Source of the DNA: an uncultured Caulobacteraceae bacterium
Lineage (GTDB): Bacteria > Pseudomonadota > Alphaproteobacteria > Caulobacterales > Caulobacteraceae
Length of the DNA: 64,000 nt
Direction of reading: 5' to 3'
NCBI GenBank assembly: GCA_903872075.1
Contig: CAIQJF010000004.1
Location: 1-64,000, forward strand
The position numbers and the translations under genes are program-made. Every line of letters begins with the position of its first letter. Within the stretch, counting starts at the first letter, position 1. Under the pieces are notes generated by a model. The model made no database searches. It was not told the DNA's origin and saw only the letters and a program-made list of their open reading frames with translations. This document shows positions 39,904 to 48,736 of this stretch, in pieces.

Positions 39904-40012
39904 CGTCCCGCGCGCCCCGCTCTGTCATCCGCGCGTCACCGCTGTCGTGCAACGTGGCGCGCGTGGCTTAGCCGCGCCCACGCGGCGGCGGCGTCAGACG
40001 AGGGCAATGGGC

Positions 40013-40576
40013 ATGAAGATAGTCTCCGCGGCGGTGCTGGCCGCCCTCCTGGCGTTTCAATCCGTCCCGGTGCACGCGACCCTGCTGGCCTTCTCGTATC
40101 GCGCGGCGGCGGGGACCATCGCCGGCGAGATCGACGGCACGCTGGAGGCCGACGGCAATACGGTCGCTGTGAACAAGGTTCTGGATTTCGTCACCTTCAA
40201 CGGCGCCGGCCATGTCTCTCTGCCCTGGCTGGGAACCGCCGACATCATCTATGGGGGCAGCCGGTCTCCCACGGTGACGTTCGACGGCGCGTTCGTCGAC
40301 TTCGCCGCTTGCGAATCCGCGTTCTGCTACCCCGGCGAAGGCGTGATCTTCGATCCCGACACCATCGCCTTCACCGAACCGGTCGTGCGGACGAGCCCCG
40401 CCTTCGGCAACATCGTCCCCCCTGATTTCGACTCGCCGGAGCCCGAAGTCTTCGACGCCCGCAAGTGGACCCTGACCGTGGTTCCCGAGCCCGCGACCTG
40501 GGCGATGTTGTTGCTGGGCTTCGGCATGATCGGCGGGGCAATGCGCAACCGCCGCGTTCCGATCAGCGCCGGCTGA
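40013..40576 (+). CDS. PEPxxWA-CTERM surface protein
   Basis: A 187-residue exported protein: signal peptide MKIVSAAVLAALLAFQSVPV, a beta-rich body (LFSYRAA-like start, GAGHVSLPWLGTADIIYGG) with a cysteine pair (AACESAFCYPG), and a C-terminal sorting tail PEPATWAMLLLGFGMIG, then an Arg-rich end. This tail type is processed by exosortase systems linked to extracellular polysaccharide. The start at 40013 has GAGGG eight bases upstream; ATG 40007 is too close to it. Convergent with the response regulator. Confidence 0.88.
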   Translation: MKIVSAAVLAALLAFQSVPVHATLLAFSYRAAAGTIAGEIDGTLEADGNTVAVNKVLDFVTFNGAGHVSLPWLGTADIIYGGSRSPTVTFDGAFVDFAACESAFCYPGEGVIFDPDTIAFTEPVVRTSPAFGNIVPPDFDSPEPEVFDARKWTLTVVPEPATWAMLLLGFGMIGGAMRNRRVPISAG

Positions 40577-40598: not shown

Positions 40599-41213
40599 CT
40601 AAGCGAGACCCCTATCGCGCATCCGCAGCACAAGTTCGGTTCGGGACCCGACCCCGAGCTTCTCGTAGATGTTGTGCAGGTGCATCTTGACCGTGCCTTC
40701 GGAGATGCTCGCCCGGTAGGCGATTTCCTTGTTGCGCAGACCCTGCGCCACGAACCGGGCGACCTCGGCCTCGCGGTCGGTGAGCCGGGTTGGCGGCGGC
40801 GCGGATAGCCGGCGGAGGGCGCGGTTCGTCACCTCCCGGTCCATCCAGGTTTCGCCGCGGCAGACGGCCGCGATGCAGGTCAGCAGATCGTCGCTGGCGG
40901 CTTCCTTCAGCACCAGCCCGTCCACACCTTCGCGCACGACCTCCATGAGGGCGTCGTCATCGATGCTGGACGTCAGGAGGACGATCTTGACCGGCAGGCC
41001 CTCCGCGCGGACGCGCTTGAGGACCTCGATCCCGGACATCCCCGGCATGTTGATGTCGAGCACCGCCACATCGCAGGCCCCGCGCGCGATCTGCGCCATC
41101 GCCGCCGCGCCGTCGCCGCAGAGGGCGACGATCTCAAACTGGGAGGGGTCGAACAGGCCCTCCATGCCCCGCAGCACAAGGGGGTGATCATCGGCCAGCA
41201 CCAGGCGGATCAC
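40599..41213 (-). CDS. NarL/LuxR-type response regulator
   Basis: A 204-residue transcription regulator. The receiver domain has the acidic pocket (VLADDHP), phospho-acceptor D53 (VAVLDINMPGMSG), a switch Thr (VLLTSS) and a conserved Lys (GLVLKEAAS). The C-terminal LuxR helix-turn-helix reads LTDREAEVARFVAQGLRNKE to GTVKMHLHNIYEKLGV. Its start overlaps the stop of the histidine kinase, so they form a cognate pair. PEP-CTERM genes lie on both sides and are candidate targets. Confidence 0.93.
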   Translation of the reverse strand: MIRLVLADDHPLVLRGMEGLFDPSQFEIVALCGDGAAAMAQIARGACDVAVLDINMPGMSGIEVLKRVRAEGLPVKIVLLTSSIDDDALMEVVREGVDGLVLKEAASDDLLTCIAAVCRGETWMDREVTNRALRRLSAPPPTRLTDREAEVARFVAQGLRNKEIAYRASISEGTVKMHLHNIYEKLGVGSRTELVLRMRDRGLA

Positions 41214-42901
41214 GCCGCGGTCCTCGCAAGAGGCGCGACGATTCGCAGTGTCGTTCCATCCGGCCCGCTTTGCAGCATCAGCTCCCCGCCGAGCCCTGCG
41301 ACGCGCTCGCGCACCATGCGTGGTCCCAAGCCCAGTCTTCTGAGTTCCTGCATATTGAATACGCCGTGCAGCGGCACGCCAATCCCATTGTCAGCGATCG
41401 TCAGCCGCAATGCGATCGAGTCGAAGTCGGCCCGGATGGACACGGCGCTCGCCTTGCCGTGACGCACCGCGTTGGAGATCGCCTCCCGCACGATCTGCAG
41501 CAGGTCGAAGGACAGATTGCCGGGCAGATCCCGTTCGGCGGACCGTTCGACATCGACGGTGATGTCGGTGCTCCACCGGCGCGCCAGAACGGCCGCGAGA
41601 TTGCGGACCTCGCCTTCGAAATCGACGGGGTGGCCGCCGGCCCGCAGAGGTCCGGAGGTGGAGTCGACCAGCACGCGCAACTGGCGTTGCTCGGCCTTGA
41701 GATCCTCGAGCAGCCGTTGAATCCGGTCGTGGGCCACGCGCTCTTCAGGGGAAAGTTCCCGGCTCAGGGACGTCAGCTGCATCGCCGTGGCGGCCATGAA
41801 CTGGAGTGTGCCGTCGTGCAGGTCGCGGGCGATACGGACCCGCTCCTCCGCCGCCGCCGCGTCGCGCCAGGCCACCAGCGAGCGCCAGGCCTCGATGGCG
41901 ATACCTGACTGCGTCGCCACCACCCCGCCGAGCATCAGGGCTTCGCGATCCAGATCGGGGAAGTCGGGAAGAACGATCCAGCCCGAGAAGCGCGAGGCGC
42001 CGACCGGCAGGACCAGGGTAAGTCCCGCCGCGAAGACGCTCAGCAGCGGGCTGGCCAGAATGTCCCCGCCGTCGCGCCGGATCCGCCCGTCGGGCGCAAG
42101 CGTCACCAGCCTCGATCCACGCGTGTCGACAAAGAAGGGTTCGTCCGTGTGGTCCAGCAGAGGCTCGCCGCCCGCGGCGGGGGGCCAGGCGCTGCGCGTC
42201 GCGCCGGCCGGCGTATACTGCTCGATCTGCAGGCTGGGTTCTTCCGGATCGCCCCAGACGAACACCGCCCTCTCCAGGCCGAAGACCGAGGCGGCGAACT
42301 CCAGGCACTCGGCGATCGGCGGGGTTTCAGAGGCCTCGGCGGGCGGCGGCGAGCCGAACAGCCGCAGCATGCCGTTGTTGATCCGCTCCTGGTGCTGCCC
42401 GTAGGCGACGAGCAACCCGCCAACGCTCAGCAGCGTCCCGATGCGGAGGAGGAATCTTGGCGCGTCGAACGGTCCGCCGGCGAGATCGCGATAGGCCGGA
42501 AGGCCCGTGACGGCGAACACCGCCAAAGCCGCGGCCGTCGCCACCGCCGCGCCCCGCCAGCCCCATTGCAAGGTCGCGCTCAGCGCGATGAGCAGGAACA
42601 CCGCGAGAGAAGCGCCGGTGGCGCCCGCGGTCAGGAGGAGCACCGCGACGAAGACAAGCCCGTCGACCGCCAGCAGGGCAAAGAACAGGGCCTCGTGGCG
42701 GCTGCGCCAGACGTATGCGGCAACCCAGCCCACGGCGGAGACGCCAAGATAGGCCGTAAGGATTTGGCGGATCCACGAATCGGCGACGCCGTCGCCGCCG
42801 TGTTCGACCAGAGCCGAGGCCAGCGCGAAGCAGGCCTGGATGACCCTGACCACCGCGACCAGCCGGTTCTGGCGCGCCTGGAGGAGGAGATGATTTTGCA
42901 T
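41210..42901 (-). CDS. Sensor histidine kinase (HisKA_3, NarX-like)
   Basis: A 563-residue membrane kinase with about five hydrophobic helices in the first ~180 residues (for example LLAVDGLVFVAVLLLTA), a GAF-like sensory middle, then the dimerisation domain with the phospho-acceptor in RIARDLHDGTLQFMAA (near residue 358), and an HATPase_c domain (LQIVREAISNAVRHG, IADNGIGV). It pairs with the NarL-type regulator just downstream. The signal is unknown; a multi-helix input of this kind usually senses a membrane or envelope cue. Confidence 0.92.
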   Translation of the reverse strand: MQNHLLLQARQNRLVAVVRVIQACFALASALVEHGGDGVADSWIRQILTAYLGVSAVGWVAAYVWRSRHEALFFALLAVDGLVFVAVLLLTAGATGASLAVFLLIALSATLQWGWRGAAVATAAALAVFAVTGLPAYRDLAGGPFDAPRFLLRIGTLLSVGGLLVAYGQHQERINNGMLRLFGSPPPAEASETPPIAECLEFAASVFGLERAVFVWGDPEEPSLQIEQYTPAGATRSAWPPAAGGEPLLDHTDEPFFVDTRGSRLVTLAPDGRIRRDGGDILASPLLSVFAAGLTLVLPVGASRFSGWIVLPDFPDLDREALMLGGVVATQSGIAIEAWRSLVAWRDAAAAEERVRIARDLHDGTLQFMAATAMQLTSLSRELSPEERVAHDRIQRLLEDLKAEQRQLRVLVDSTSGPLRAGGHPVDFEGEVRNLAAVLARRWSTDITVDVERSAERDLPGNLSFDLLQIVREAISNAVRHGKASAVSIRADFDSIALRLTIADNGIGVPLHGVFNMQELRRLGLGPRMVRERVAGLGGELMLQSGPDGTTLRIVAPLARTAA

Positions 42902-43131: not shown

Positions 43132-44268
43132 CTATATCGAAAGATCACCTTGCGGCGCGGACGCCACAGGTGAGGTCCGGCGTCCGCGGACCGCGGCGCC
43201 CAGCAGGGCGACGCCCAGAAACATGGTCGCCCATGCGGCCGGCTCCGGAACGCCGCCGGGCGACCCGGATTCCGGGATTGTCTCGCCAGGCGCCACAACG
43301 CCGCCGAGCGGTTCGCCCCCGAGGCCGGCGTTGATCACGTTGGGCGTCACGCCGACGGGTCCTGGGACCGGAGACGTCTGGGCGACCGGGGCTTGCCAGG
43401 GCGTCACATAGGGAACGCCTCCGCCGGCGATAGCGACCGGGCCGGATCCATCCTGCCCAACCGGCGGGGTGAGATAGGGGCCGGTCTGCGATCCCGTTGC
43501 GCCATCGGGGCCATTGGAGGCGGAGCCCGTACCACCGCCATGGTGTCCGGACGGCCCGGAGGACCCCGAGGTCAAGTCGCCGACGCCCGCGCCGGCCAGA
43601 TCGAGGGACGGGGCGGCGCCGAAGCCGTCCGCGCGGTCGCCCCAACCCGCGGAGGCGTCCGTAAGCGCATGCATGGCGCTCCAGGCCTGCCCCGCCGAAT
43701 GCGCCCGCGACGCCAATTCGACGACAGCCAGATCGCTCTCGGTCTTGTTCTGACCGGCGAGGTGAGAGTCCGAGGCGTGCATGGCGCCAGCCGAAAGAGC
43801 GCCCCCCGCCTGCGGCGCTTTCGCCTCCGCGGGACGGGACGACGCGACCTGGCGACCGGCGGCGGTCTTCGCGACGGACGGTGTCGTGCTGGCTTGAATT
43901 CCCAGACCCGTAGCCAGCGCGCCCACGACCACGGTCCGGATCACGCTCTCGCCCAGCCAGGCCTTGAGGGCGTTGCGGCGCGCGGAGATGATGGCCAGCA
44001 GCCCGGCCCAGGCCGGACCCGATAGAAGCGCCTCACGCCGATCGAACCGGCGTCGCCGGTAGACGGGTTTCAGGCGGTCCTGAGGTGCGAATTTGGAACT
44101 GGCCAACGGGAACGCCTCACCGAACGTTACTTCAGCACGCGGTTCTTTCTCACACCTGCCCAGCCCCGGCAACGGACGCCAAGGCCCCCTTGTAGAAATA
44201 CAGGGGCAGAGGCGCGCGTGGCGCCTCCCGGTTACTTGGGTCGTATCGCCGGCCGCGATGCGGGGCAA
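43132..44268 (-). CDS. PEPxxWA-CTERM protein with low-complexity body
   Basis: The C-terminus carries a PEP sorting tail (VPEPAAWATMFLGVALLGAA, then Arg-rich end). An internal hydrophobic segment (TVVVGALATGLGIQAST, about residue 115 of the longest frame) should be the signal peptide or anchor, and the body is rich in Gly, Ser, Pro and Ala (for example SSGPSGHHGGGTGSASNG). The start is unsure: the longest frame begins at 44268 but the first ~60 residues look non-coding, and no clear ribosome site marks a later start. It is divergent from the repeat-bearing PEP-CTERM gene and upstream of the kinase on the same strand. Confidence 0.6.
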   Translation of the reverse strand: MPRIAAGDTTQVTGRRHARLCPCISTRGPWRPLPGLGRCEKEPRAEVTFGEAFPLASSKFAPQDRLKPVYRRRRFDRREALLSGPAWAGLLAIISARRNALKAWLGESVIRTVVVGALATGLGIQASTTPSVAKTAAGRQVASSRPAEAKAPQAGGALSAGAMHASDSHLAGQNKTESDLAVVELASRAHSAGQAWSAMHALTDASAGWGDRADGFGAAPSLDLAGAGVGDLTSGSSGPSGHHGGGTGSASNGPDGATGSQTGPYLTPPVGQDGSGPVAIAGGGVPYVTPWQAPVAQTSPVPGPVGVTPNVINAGLGGEPLGGVVAPGETIPESGSPGGVPEPAAWATMFLGVALLGAAVRGRRTSPVASAPQGDLSI

Positions 44269-44369
44269 GCCGGACGAAGGTTAAGGCCGATCTATATCCA
44301 ACGGTCAGATTGACCGCCGGCGTCAAATTCAGCGTTGTTGTCCACGATTTGTAACAGTGGAGATGCGTT

Positions 44370-45632
44370 GTGAACCCGATTTCCAAGCGAGACGCGATGC
44401 GGTTTGCTCTGCCGGCCGCCTTGGCGCTGGCCATGGCGTCGCACGCCGACGCCCGCATCTACACCTTCGCCGCCATGAGCCCCGTCCCAACCGGCGTGCT
44501 TCAATATAACATTCAGTACGCCAATCAGGACGTCCCGACCTATCAGAAGATCGCCGTCTACAATTCCGCCAACGTATATTATGCGACGAACGTTTATAAC
44601 GCCGCTCCAGTCTATTACACCAGCAACATCTACAACACCACGAACGTCTATTATTCGTCCAACGTTTACAACACCTCGCCGGTCACCTGGGCGACAAGCG
44701 GCGTTTGCGGAACGGGCGGCTGCTACATCAACGGTGTCCTGAAGCCCAAGGGCACGCACTACACCGCCGGACAGTTGGAGTACGCCATCGGGCAACAGCT
44801 GCTGCACGCCAAGGGTTCGGTGCAATACGCGCCGGGACAGCAGCTGCTGCACGCCGCGGGATCCTTGCAATATGCGCCTGGCCAGCAGGTGCTTCACGCC
44901 GCCGGCTCGCTGCAGTACGCCAAGGGGACCCATGTCCAGGGCTACAGGAACGGCCCGCTGATCAGCAACGCCCCCTCCGGCGTGCTTGAGACGACGTCGC
45001 TCTCCGTCCCGGTCAAGTTCAGCTTTCTCGACGCCTTGTCGGCGAAGATCACCAACGTACCCGCCACCCTGACCTTGTCCGCAACGTCCACCGATCCCGC
45101 CGACAAGATCCTCGGCCCGAACGCCTTCCTGAGCGTCCTCGCCCAGGGCGACTTCAACGGCTCCTTCTCGATCGTCGCCGACAAGCCGATCACCGTGGGG
45201 ATCGGCAAGGGTCAGGTCATCGGGACGAACCTGCTTTCCGGGGTGTTCACCGACGGACTCCTGCAGGGCCAGACCGGCGGCTCGACGGCGTCGTTCCTCA
45301 TCAACGGCGGCGCCGGGTCGCCCCCCGGAACGACCCTGGTCTACAGTTCGGACTTCCTGGATTTCCTCAACAACCGCGCCGAAGCGGGCTCCTTCGCGAT
45401 GACCGGCCTGTCCACCGTGCTCAGCGCGCTTCGGCCCGAGATCAACGGCGCCGCCAGCCCCACGGCCAGCTCGCTCAACAGCTTCAAGGGCGACGCCGTC
45501 GGCAATTTCGCGTCCGACCCGGCGCCCCGGACGCTGGGCGTCCCTGAACCGGCGGCATGGACGGTGATTCTGGTCGGATTTGGCGCCGTCGGCGCGGCGA
45601 TCCGGCGGCGGCGCGGCCCCGCAATCGCCTAA
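44370..45632 (+). CDS. PEPxxWA-CTERM protein with two internal tandem-repeat arrays
   Basis: A 420-residue exported protein. After the signal peptide (FALPAALALAMASHADA) come three 12-residue units of the form xxNVYYxxNVYN (44565-44672), a short CGTGGC link, then three 15-residue units YAPGQQLLHAAGSLQ with partial copies at each end (44781-44915). A ~190-residue beta-rich domain follows (LSVPVKFSFLDALSAK onward) and then the tail VPEPAAWTVILVGFGAVGAA. Repeats of Tyr/Asn and Gln/Gly/His suggest a stacked or amyloid-like surface fibre. GTG start with GGAG nine bases upstream. I recognise no family for the body. Confidence 0.85.
   Translation: MNPISKRDAMRFALPAALALAMASHADARIYTFAAMSPVPTGVLQYNIQYANQDVPTYQKIAVYNSANVYYATNVYNAAPVYYTSNIYNTTNVYYSSNVYNTSPVTWATSGVCGTGGCYINGVLKPKGTHYTAGQLEYAIGQQLLHAKGSVQYAPGQQLLHAAGSLQYAPGQQVLHAAGSLQYAKGTHVQGYRNGPLISNAPSGVLETTSLSVPVKFSFLDALSAKITNVPATLTLSATSTDPADKILGPNAFLSVLAQGDFNGSFSIVADKPITVGIGKGQVIGTNLLSGVFTDGLLQGQTGGSTASFLINGGAGSPPGTTLVYSSDFLDFLNNRAEAGSFAMTGLSTVLSALRPEINGAASPTASSLNSFKGDAVGNFASDPAPRTLGVPEPAAWTVILVGFGAVGAAIRRRRGPAIA
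44565..44672 (+). repeat. Three 36-bp coding repeats (12-residue NVYY/NVYN units)
   Basis: Units at 44565-44600, 44601-44636 and 44637-44672 encode SANVYYATNVYN, AAPVYYTSNIYN and TTNVYYSSNVYN. Partial units flank them (QKIAVYN before, TSPV after). Codons differ between units while the residues are kept, which argues for selection on the protein rather than recent slippage. Confidence 0.9.
44781..44915 (+). repeat. Three 45-bp coding repeats (15-residue YAPGQQLLHAAGSLQ units)
   Basis: Units at 44781-44825, 44826-44870 and 44871-44915 encode YAIGQQLLHAKGSVQ, YAPGQQLLHAAGSLQ and YAPGQQVLHAAGSLQ. Partial copies flank them: KGTHYTAGQLE before and YAKGTHVQ after. Third-position differences exceed residue differences, as in the first array. 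Confidence 0.92.
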
Positions 45633-45874
45633 GGTTTGGACTCGCGCTCCGGCCGCCAGTCCGACTGCTGCGGCTTGAGGGCGAAGAAATCCGGCTCGTG
45701 CGTGAAGTGATAGGCCGCCGTGTCCAGCGCCTTCCGCACCGCGTCCAGGATCAGATAGTCGGGCCCGAACGGGCGGAAGCGATCCTGCATGCCGCGCACC
45801 CGCTCGCGCAGCGGGCGGAGTTCGTCGAACGCCCCCTTGGGGTCGGGAAGGCCGGTATAGCGAACGGGAACCAT
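45629..45874 (-). CDS. Hypothetical protein, 81 residues
   Basis: Starts at 45874 with GGAGGT seven bases upstream: MVPVRYTGLPDPKGAFDELR, then a helical stretch (LRERVRGMQDRFRPFGPDY, LILDAVRKALDTAAYHFTHE). Soluble, no known domain. Its end overlaps the PEP-CTERM stop by 4 nt. It is divergent from the SnoaL-like gene, with about 180 bp between them. Confidence 0.7.
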   Translation of the reverse strand: MVPVRYTGLPDPKGAFDELRPLRERVRGMQDRFRPFGPDYLILDAVRKALDTAAYHFTHEPDFFALKPQQSDWRPERESKP

Positions 45875-46058
45875 GGGAGACCTCCGGGGCGAAAGCGAGC
45901 CTGAAGCTTCTCGCAACGCCGCCGCCGGCGCAAGGGTTTGTTCTCTTTTTGTTCCGTTGCGGCCGCGACGATCCGCCCGCCCTTGCCCCTGGCCCCGCCC
46001 GCCGAAAAGGGCCACAAAACCCGAAACCGGCGAGCAACGCCGGACAGGGAGCCAAGGC

Positions 46059-46619
46059 ATGAAAGTCGACCCCACCCGCACCTGGGCCGCCGTCGAGGCG
46101 GCCTATGAGGCCGAAACCAATCCGCGCCACAAGCTGCTGCTGAAAGAGGTGCGCGATCACATGAAGACCGAGGTCTGCGGCGAGCTCGAGCTGCTCATGG
46201 CCACCCTCACCGCCGAACCGCAATATCACATCTGGGGCCAGGGCCCGGACCGGGGACCCAAGGGCCGCGCCGCCGTGCGCGCCTTCTACGAGGGCCTGAT
46301 CGCGGCCGGCGGCAATCTCTTCGAGTTCAACGTCGAGAAGGTGATCGTCGACGACAACGCCGTGGTCACCGAGGGCCGGCTGCGCAACACCCATCCGGGC
46401 GAACAGCTGCTGGCGGCGGGCGTCGCCACGGTCGGCGGCGCGCCGGTCGAGGCCGGCGCCCTCTATGTGTCGAACGCCCAGCTCCTCACCGTCTGGCCGG
46501 CCGATCCGGCCGGCAAACTGATCGGCGAGGACATCTATTTCGGCACGAACCCGTTCGACAACCTCGCGAAGCTGGGCCCCGGCGAGGCGCCGCAAAGGGT
46601 CTCGATCGACACCGTCTGA
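46059..46619 (+). CDS. SnoaL/NTF2-like protein
   Basis: A 186-residue soluble protein with an NTF2-like cone fold: an N-terminal helix pair (TWAAVEAAYEAETNPRHKLL), MATLTAEPQYHIWGQGPDRG, GRAAVRAFYEGLIAAGGNLF and a strand VEKVIVDDNAVVTEGRL. Such proteins are polyketide cyclases, isomerases or unknown. AGGGAG nine bases upstream fixes the start. The C-terminal ~40 residues extend beyond the usual fold. Confidence 0.82.
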   Translation: MKVDPTRTWAAVEAAYEAETNPRHKLLLKEVRDHMKTEVCGELELLMATLTAEPQYHIWGQGPDRGPKGRAAVRAFYEGLIAAGGNLFEFNVEKVIVDDNAVVTEGRLRNTHPGEQLLAAGVATVGGAPVEAGALYVSNAQLLTVWPADPAGKLIGEDIYFGTNPFDNLAKLGPGEAPQRVSIDTV

Positions 46620-48404: not shown

Positions 48405-48479
48405 TGGAGCGGCCGGGGGGAATCGAACCCCCGACATTCAGCTTGGGAAGCTGACGTTCTACCTCTGAACTACGGCCGC
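48405..48479 (-). tRNA. tRNA-Gly (anticodon CCC)
   Basis: Minus strand. Same acceptor (GCGGCCG/CGGCCGC), discriminator T and encoded CCA as the TCC isoacceptor. The anticodon arm TCAGC-TTCCCAA-GCTGA gives CCC (reads GGG). The two genes differ at only a few positions, so they are likely duplicates with a changed anticodon. Confidence 0.94.
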
Positions 48480-48736
48480 GCTGAGCGGGCAATTACGCGG
48501 TTTTGGTCCCGTTGCAAAGCGCCGCCGAGCCCGGAGAAGCCGGCGATCATCATCGCCCAGCTCGCCGGCTCCGGAACCGCCGTGCCGCCGAACGCCAGGT
48601 CGACCGGCGGGCCATATCCGCCCGTGGAGAGGACCTGTTCCACGGTCATGGTCAGCAGGGCGTAGCTGGCGTTGGGTGTCAGGCCCACCGACAGGGAGAT
48701 GGCGGCCCCGGGACCGAAGAGACCCCAACCGGTCAC
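48470..48736 (-). pseudogene. PEPxxWA-CTERM protein, C-terminal fragment
   Basis: An 88-codon frame ending in a sorting tail (VPEPASWAMMIAGFSGLGGA, then charged end) preceded by a short beta-rich stretch (YALLTMTVEQVLSTGGYG). No signal peptide is possible: the frame begins against the glyoxalase-fold gene, whose stop is at 48733. The 5' part has been lost, probably by a deletion that joined the two genes. The 3' end overlaps the tRNA-Gly 5' end by about 10 nt. Confidence 0.65.

Follow-up and report, generated by a model that had tools for sequence, protein, structure and literature searches.

A PEPxxWA-CTERM protein of an uncultured Caulobacteraceae bacterium carries two unlike tandem arrays on a scaffold common to a paralogous family

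What kind of surface protein bears two unrelated tandem arrays ahead of a C-terminal sorting signal? The question is raised by a reading frame at 44370-45632 (+) in the window, the whole stretch of 64,000 nucleotides from an uncultured Caulobacteraceae bacterium that was analyzed. From the sequence alone, the product of this frame, hereafter the target, had been taken for an exosortase-sorted protein with arrays of 12 and 15 residues that might stack into a fibre or an amyloid.

The target has 420 residues and starts at GTG; a ribosome-binding-like GGAG (44359..44362, +), read from the sequence, ends 7 nt 5' of that codon. Its N-terminus shows, by eye, a hydrophobic stretch ending in ADA, and residues 1-28 (44370..44453, +) make a likely signal peptide when placed by eye as in the paralogues described below. 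The PEPxxWA-CTERM sorting signal, a 24-residue domain at residues 391-414 (45540..45611, +), passes both NF035944 (37.6 bits, with 35 required) and Pfam model PF07589 (24.9 bits, with 20.7 required), which bears out the assignment as a PEP-CTERM surface protein. In NCBIfam and Pfam, only PEP-CTERM-type families match the target at E<=1, and no other family exceeds its cut-off. GC at third codon positions is 0.69-0.91 in all six measured sections of the frame, arrays included. A search of 43900-45900 for promoter- and terminator-like sites was negative, as was a PADLOC search. The target is a real surface protein of a known export class.

The genome, a draft of 4.36 Mb in 100 contigs and about 93% complete, has 60 matches to NF035944; 50 were counted as exceeding the cut-off, including one that does so only together with its in-frame neighbours. 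It has one exosortase match (PF09721, 200.3 bits). This exosortase scores above the threshold of the XrtV model (324.1 bits, cut-off 313), and the adjoining gene passes the model for V-type EpsI (240 bits against 228). EpsD-, EpsE-, EpsF- and sugar-transferase-like genes, all scoring below curated cut-offs, surround XrtV, which on this predicted gene content sits in an exopolysaccharide-type locus. The target gene lies outside that locus (contig C4, against C71), and no neighbouring gene ties the target itself to exopolysaccharide. With XrtV and a V-type EpsI both encoded, the genome has the genes that sorting of the target would need. As far as gene content goes, then, the proposed exosortase sorting is supported by the PEPxxWA-CTERM signal, XrtV and EpsI, and the co-occurrence of signal and enzyme gene suggests that the target is processed and displayed on the surface by XrtV.

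The target's surroundings hold more genes of the same class. Divergent from it is a second PEPxxWA-type gene (43132-44265, -), which scores 32.5 bits against NF035944 in one search, under the cut-off of 35, and 36.0 in the genome search; its counterpart, recognized by eye, occurs near a histidine kinase in a related genome, G002 (L130, 3363-4433). Further PEPxxWA-CTERM genes are found at 39947-40573 (+) and 48470-48733 (-), making four within about 9 kb, and the group lies near a two-component pair at 40599-42901. G002 also has the window's histidine kinase and response regulator; of three PEPxxWA-type genes close to them, two match the target, in the C-terminal part only. Orthologues of the neighbouring gene at 46059 occur in G012 and G003, and the 10-kb stretches around those orthologues contain none of nine other window proteins tested, the target among them.

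Array 1 comprises eight hexads, AVYNSA, NVYYAT, NVYNAA, PVYYTS, NIYNTT, NVYYSS, NVYNTS and PVTWAT, at residues 62-109 (44553..44696, +), the last of which coincides with the second strand (b2) of the scaffold. Period 12 gives the best autocorrelation, followed by 24, 18, 36 and 6, and the observed value was reached by 1 of 5000 shuffles of the array's own segment. Hexads 1-7 alternate between VYY and VYN types. Over 50 residues the segment is free of D, E, K and R and contains ten Tyr and nine Asn, and its combined Tyr and Asn content peaks at 20 per 48 residues, compared with 13 or fewer in the other 48 PEPxxWA rows examined. Tandem Repeats Finder, working at the DNA level, did not report array 1. 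Array 2 (44775..44930, +) reads LEYAIGQQLLHAKGS, VQYAPGQQLLHAAGS and LQYAPGQQVLHAAGS, followed by a partial LQYAKGT; its period is 15, with three copies at residues 136-180 (44775-44909) before the partial fourth. None of 5000 shuffles of its own segment reached the observed autocorrelation, and Tandem Repeats Finder gave 45 bp x 3.0 copies at 79% matches. Both of the arrays first described are real, although the 12-residue period is better put as 2 x 6, since the unit of array 1 is six residues. The only two Cys residues of the target (113 and 118; CGTGGC, 44706-44723) fall on the turn between the arrays and could, from their placement in the sequence, form a small disulfide loop.

Mismatches between copies at first, second and third codon positions number 10, 4 and 23 for the 15-mers, 14, 4 and 16 for the 12-mers, and 41, 10 and 51 for six hexads. 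Simulated neutral change equalled the real copies in same-residue pairs in 1, 75 and 0 of 5000 runs for 15-mers, 12-mers and hexads, respectively, and in third-position share in 4, 382 and 51 of 5000. These counts make the support for residue-keeping strong for the 15-mers and the hexads and weaker for the 12-mers. The early impression that residues are kept while codons drift therefore stands, least strongly for the 12-mers. Because the repeat residues are kept more than under neutral drift, the arrays are not just ordinary loops.

The carrier of the arrays is, by sequence comparison, a long member of a paralogous family predicted to be beta-rich. A pairwise search of 60 relatives with the whole protein, made before any profile was built, found its C-terminal half to be common to paralogues (best E 3.1e-14) from the target's genome as well as from G002, G009, G011 and G012. 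A profile built from seven members, in a search that scored at most 7 candidates per genome, gave hits at E<=1e-9 in 61 genomes of the bacterial family out of 388, many of those listed touching the sorting signal only; at least 31 near-full-length rows from at least 19 genomes, the target included, are among the matches listed. The target, itself a row of the profile, scores 233.7 bits over positions 11-243 of 244. An alignment, a structure model and a tree were made from the target plus 23 of the 30 other near-full-length rows, the remaining seven being left out. Mature length in the 23 aligned members is 176-208 aa, against 362 aa in the target. Six of the seven unaligned rows are complete at the N-terminus, measure about 174-210 residues by eye from signal peptide to PEP motif, and have no arrays; the seventh (G015:C71) is cut at a contig end. 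Among the matches listed, this makes 29 other members whose N-terminus is complete, and all of them lack both the arrays and any comparably large insert. Two frames of the family, L019 in G012 (712-2241, -, 509 aa) and L006 in G002 (700-2259, -, 519 aa), each hold two scaffold copies, with an internal PEPxxWA motif, then a second signal-peptide-like stretch, and no stop between the copies; they represent either gene fusions or a stop codon missing from the draft.

Three segments of the target, residues 31-38, 104-120 and 203-390, align with the 23 family members. The first is scaffold strand b1, YTFAAMSP (44460..44483, +), which aligns to the family motif TFAxFxP and is a strand in the AlphaFold2 model. 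The second is strand b2 with the turn that follows it, PVTWATSGVCGTGGCYI (44679..44729, +), where the alignment of mature sequences sets PVTWATSG..TGG of the target on the family's second-strand motif N-x-T-W-T-S..TGG. The third (44976..45539, +) is the beta-rich body of the family scaffold, delimited by profile match, alignment and pLDDT. Of the target's sequence, GVLETTSLSVPVKFSF aligns with the family's third strand. Predicted strands 1 and 2 thereby flank array 1, and predicted strands 2 and 3 flank array 2. An earlier full-length alignment, with signal peptides kept, and the profile search had instead matched the family's N-terminal motif to the last part of array 2. We prefer the mature-sequence alignment because it puts the target's own TFAAMSP on the motif, where the model strand is confident. 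In a tree of the 24 aligned rows, the target joins an insert-free member from G012 at a fork (90/48) that is not firm. Since this tree neighbour is insert-free, the insert is most simply a gain, and its absence from all 29 other N-terminally complete members likewise suggests that it was gained rather than lost.

AlphaFold2 was run with the family alignment of mature sequences, so that the model is not independent of that alignment; it reached a pTM of 0.59, with mean pLDDT of the five models from 47.7 to 63.3. A run on the whole mature protein without an alignment was uninformative, with a mean pLDDT of 31. In the aligned run, block pLDDT is 67-93 over model residues 181-360, the scaffold; strand b1 lies at model residues 3-10, with 88 in the first ten-residue block, and strand b2 is short, at model residues 77-79 in a block of pLDDT 58. 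Model residues 28-74 and 83-177, which make up almost all of the insert, fall below 50. Foldseek found no match to the model at E<=0.001, while VIA-align gave Z of at most 7.3 (PagL), among small beta-barrels and at a level that the tool terms common, and 5.2-6.2 against dirigent proteins. Pfam has no family for the scaffold, with one hit (E 0.018) in one of the 24 members, and a scaffold profile made a single marginal hit to a solved structure, that of the cell-surface adhesin 4ng0 (E 0.041). The fold searches named no family, small outer-membrane barrels and dirigent or allene-oxide-cyclase-like proteins being among those considered, and a lack of matches of this kind does not count as evidence of a new fold. 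The original prediction had named a globular fold with the repeats as unrelated loops as evidence against it; half of that objection holds, for the arrays lie in two loops of a compact predicted scaffold, yet they are real repeats whose residues are kept beyond neutral drift.

Of 16 genomes of the genus, the 15 other than the target's own yield nothing at E<=0.01 for the insert of 168 residues. More widely, matches at E<=0.01 occur in 16 of 390 genomes of the family and at E<=0.001 in 4 of 398 genomes of the order, the target's own genome counted in both. The weak matches comprise 17 rows from the family search, at 16.5-22.3 bits, and three from the order search, one of them shared. Ten different stretches, covering 8 of the 17 family rows and all three order rows, were translated, and the arrays were absent from each; one of these stretches, L129, is of low complexity. 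As none of the ten shows arrays, the weak matches were taken as chance rather than as relatives of the insert. Scans of plasmids, viruses, phages and species genomes were aimed at close relatives only and may omit the target's own genome and very near ones. Exact-peptide scans of about 85,000 species genomes yielded 41 and 13 pattern matches, none of them confirmed; plasmids gave no array match; viral contigs, scanned for array 2 only, gave 47 pattern matches with none confirmed; and phage records gave one hit for array 1, at E 0.6, and none for array 2. Matches in the PDB to a designed TPR, other designed proteins and 4D2 (array 1 at E 0.057 and array 2 at E 0.032 at best) were set aside as reflecting composition. 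The claim that no known family has this pairing of arrays agrees with all of these searches, which did not find the pairing in genus, family, order, GTDB, plasmid, phage or viral sequences.

Strong tandem repeats as such are not confined to the target among PEPxxWA proteins of its genome. They were seen in 3 of the 49 rows examined, drawn from 55 frames after leaving out rows that shared locus and strand, in a frame search that misses degenerate motifs and sets start codons by rule of thumb. The other two are L099 (G000:C35:6250-7800, -), a PEPxxWA-CTERM protein with a repeat of about 59 residues, and L101 (G000:C12:9300-10700, +), a PEPxxWA-CTERM protein with a long Gly/Ser/Thr-rich stretch of low complexity.

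Hexapeptide proteins in the relaxed sense have an aliphatic residue at position i and a small residue at i+4, and the strict motif is [LIV][GAED]xx[STAVC]x. All eight hexads of array 1 fit [LIV]-x3-[STAV]-x in phase. With a wider pattern that also allows F and C, none of 20,000 shuffles of array 1 gives a run of eight, and the next-best hexad run among the 49 PEPxxWA rows of the genome is four. The strict motif fits none of the eight. Searched alone against PHROGs, array 1 matches phrog_7964 at E 4.1e-4 and phrog_5070 at E 4.7e-5, the latter a permissive model, since every one of 14 control genomes gives it a hit at E<=1. The whole target matches more weakly (E 2.7e-4 for phrog_5070 and 0.006 for phrog_7964), and eight shuffled array-1 controls hit neither family, 0.032 being the lowest E value that they gave against any family. 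Protein P0002 of Dulem virus 30 belongs to both families (E 3.4e-49 and 5.5e-49) and reads IYNNAR IYNNAG IYNNTK; it has sub-cut-off Pfam signals for the YdcK beta-solenoid and Hexapep. In the target genome, phrog_5070 also weakly matches LpxD (E 0.0255), a hexapeptide protein by Pfam. Neither array alone matches any Pfam family, even at E<=10.

Array 1 thus resembles the hexapeptide left-handed beta-helix in its six-residue period and in having V or I followed by a small residue four positions on, and it resembles the phage protein in having Tyr after V or I. It differs from the beta-helix in its 12-residue super-period, in matching no Pfam family, in departing from the strict motif and in the absence of a confident model, and eight hexads would make 2.7 coils only. 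On balance, a hexapeptide-type beta-solenoid is a tentative reading of array 1, to which we give somewhat less than an even chance. Given the weak match to phage families of hexapeptide beta-solenoid type, a short beta-helix is nevertheless a better guess than an amyloid. For array 2, the alternation of LQYA, PG, QQLLHA and AGS prompts the guess that its units may be beta-hairpins.

The explanation we favor is that the target is made with a signal peptide, would be held by its PEPxxWA-CTERM segment and would be processed by an XrtV-type exosortase. Its body would be the compact beta fold common to the paralogous family, with two adjacent loops expanded. Array 1, the eight Tyr/Asn hexapeptides between b1 and b2, would most likely form a short solenoid of hexapeptide type, and array 2, whose 15-residue Gln/Gly/His/Leu units number at least three between b2 and b3, would form hairpin units. 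Together the arrays may protrude from the scaffold and give the protein an adhesive face for exopolysaccharide or some other surface. As a whole, this account of a lineage-specific, repeat-decorated exosortase cargo has in our judgment about an even chance of being right. By analogy with the published work on PEP-CTERM proteins and bound polymer described below, a matrix or adhesion protein with the arrays as its contact face is the most likely role.

If the arrays were instead functional amyloid or fibre-forming units, they would stack between chains into a matrix fibre, a prospect that the uncharged, Tyr/Asn-rich make-up of array 1, with a peak well above that of other rows, and the keeping of repeat residues both favor. 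Yet no amyloid family matches the target in NCBIfam or Pfam at E<=1, nor the arrays in Pfam at E<=10. The copy numbers, 3 and 8, are low, the arrays appear as loop insertions in a compact predicted scaffold, and a literature search found PEP-CTERM, exosortase, repeat and amyloid together in no paper. Amyloid or fibre formation as originally proposed is thus without backing from family evidence in these two collections, and we consider it distinctly improbable. Slippage might also have expanded surface loops that tolerate it, leaving arrays that are largely disordered and have no specific role, a reading that would suit their low pLDDT and low-complexity make-up, the confirmation of the insert in no relative searched and its origin in a single draft genome. 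Against slippage, residues are kept beyond neutral drift, as the simulations above indicate, and array 1 is not a fresh product of it, because its DNA is too diverged for Tandem Repeats Finder to report; idle slippage is unlikely, if less so than amyloid.

A further proposal concerns the source of array 1, which may have been amplified from family strand b2 (N-x-T-W-T-S), a scaffold strand seeding a new beta-solenoid. The last hexad, PVTWAT, aligns with b2, and the in-phase hexads score best of the six phases against the family profile (mean -4.1 for seven hexads, against -7.5 to -14.2). Only 4 of 5000 residue shuffles reach the six-hexad score of -2.8, by a null that is lenient because shuffling destroys hexad order. 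The profile scores are nonetheless negative, with single hexads in the top 3 to 62 percent of family 6-mers, and the chance of such an origin seems slim. Slimmer still is that of a combined scheme in which two neighbouring loops were replaced by different repeat modules, array 1 having grown from b2 into a nascent solenoid, so as to make a paired, tunable adhesive tip on a protein linked to exopolysaccharide. That the target is an assembly or gene-call artefact, or a pseudogene, is hardly credible: draft assemblies can have wrong repeat copy numbers, and this one is in 100 contigs at about 93% completeness, but the gene has one stop-free frame with coding third-position GC throughout, copies that are not identical, and signals at both ends. 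The adhesive-face account of the decorated cargo protein remains our preferred reading.

Curli-type amyloids, like the target, have tandem Gln/Asn/Gly-rich units on a secreted protein, and their repeats differ from those of the target in unit length and residues; no amyloid family in NCBIfam or Pfam matches the target. With PEPxxWA-CTERM cargo in general the target has in common a likely signal peptide, a PEP motif, a hydrophobic segment and an Arg cluster, a class membership that says nothing about the body of the protein. The paralogous family has the same scaffold, and among the members compared the two array-bearing loop insertions occur in the target only. Like the target, the PepA floc and PEP-CTERM matrix proteins are PEP-CTERM cargo, for which a role with bound extracellular polymer is proposed (PMC9850573); NF033554 (floc_PepA) has no match to the target at E<=1, and only the class of sorting signal is shared. 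In Aquincola, the product of a PEP-CTERM gene is reported to shift polysaccharide from soluble to bound; the gene affected the formation of flocs and had no such effect on biofilms (PMC9850573). The title of the founding paper ties PEP-CTERM sorting to exopolysaccharide, and processing by exosortase is phrased there as a hypothesis (PMC1569441). PEP-CTERM, tandem repeat and surface protein are joined in one paper, which appears to be about ice-binding proteins. The literature search found no paper with "PEPxxWA-CTERM" or "exosortase V", and none that joined PEP-CTERM with beta-helix.

Genomes with an exosortase can hold dozens of PEP-CTERM cargo proteins, and 50 are over the cut-off here. What is new is the carrier family, with one predicted beta scaffold common to PEP-CTERM cargo and with the sites of insertion located. 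If the arrays are unfolded and idle, the target would be an ordinary lineage-specific surface protein. A testable guess of a hexapeptide solenoid now stands beside that of an amyloid, and the insert-bearing target and its insert-free paralogues in the same genome make a clean pair for the effect of a repeat insertion.
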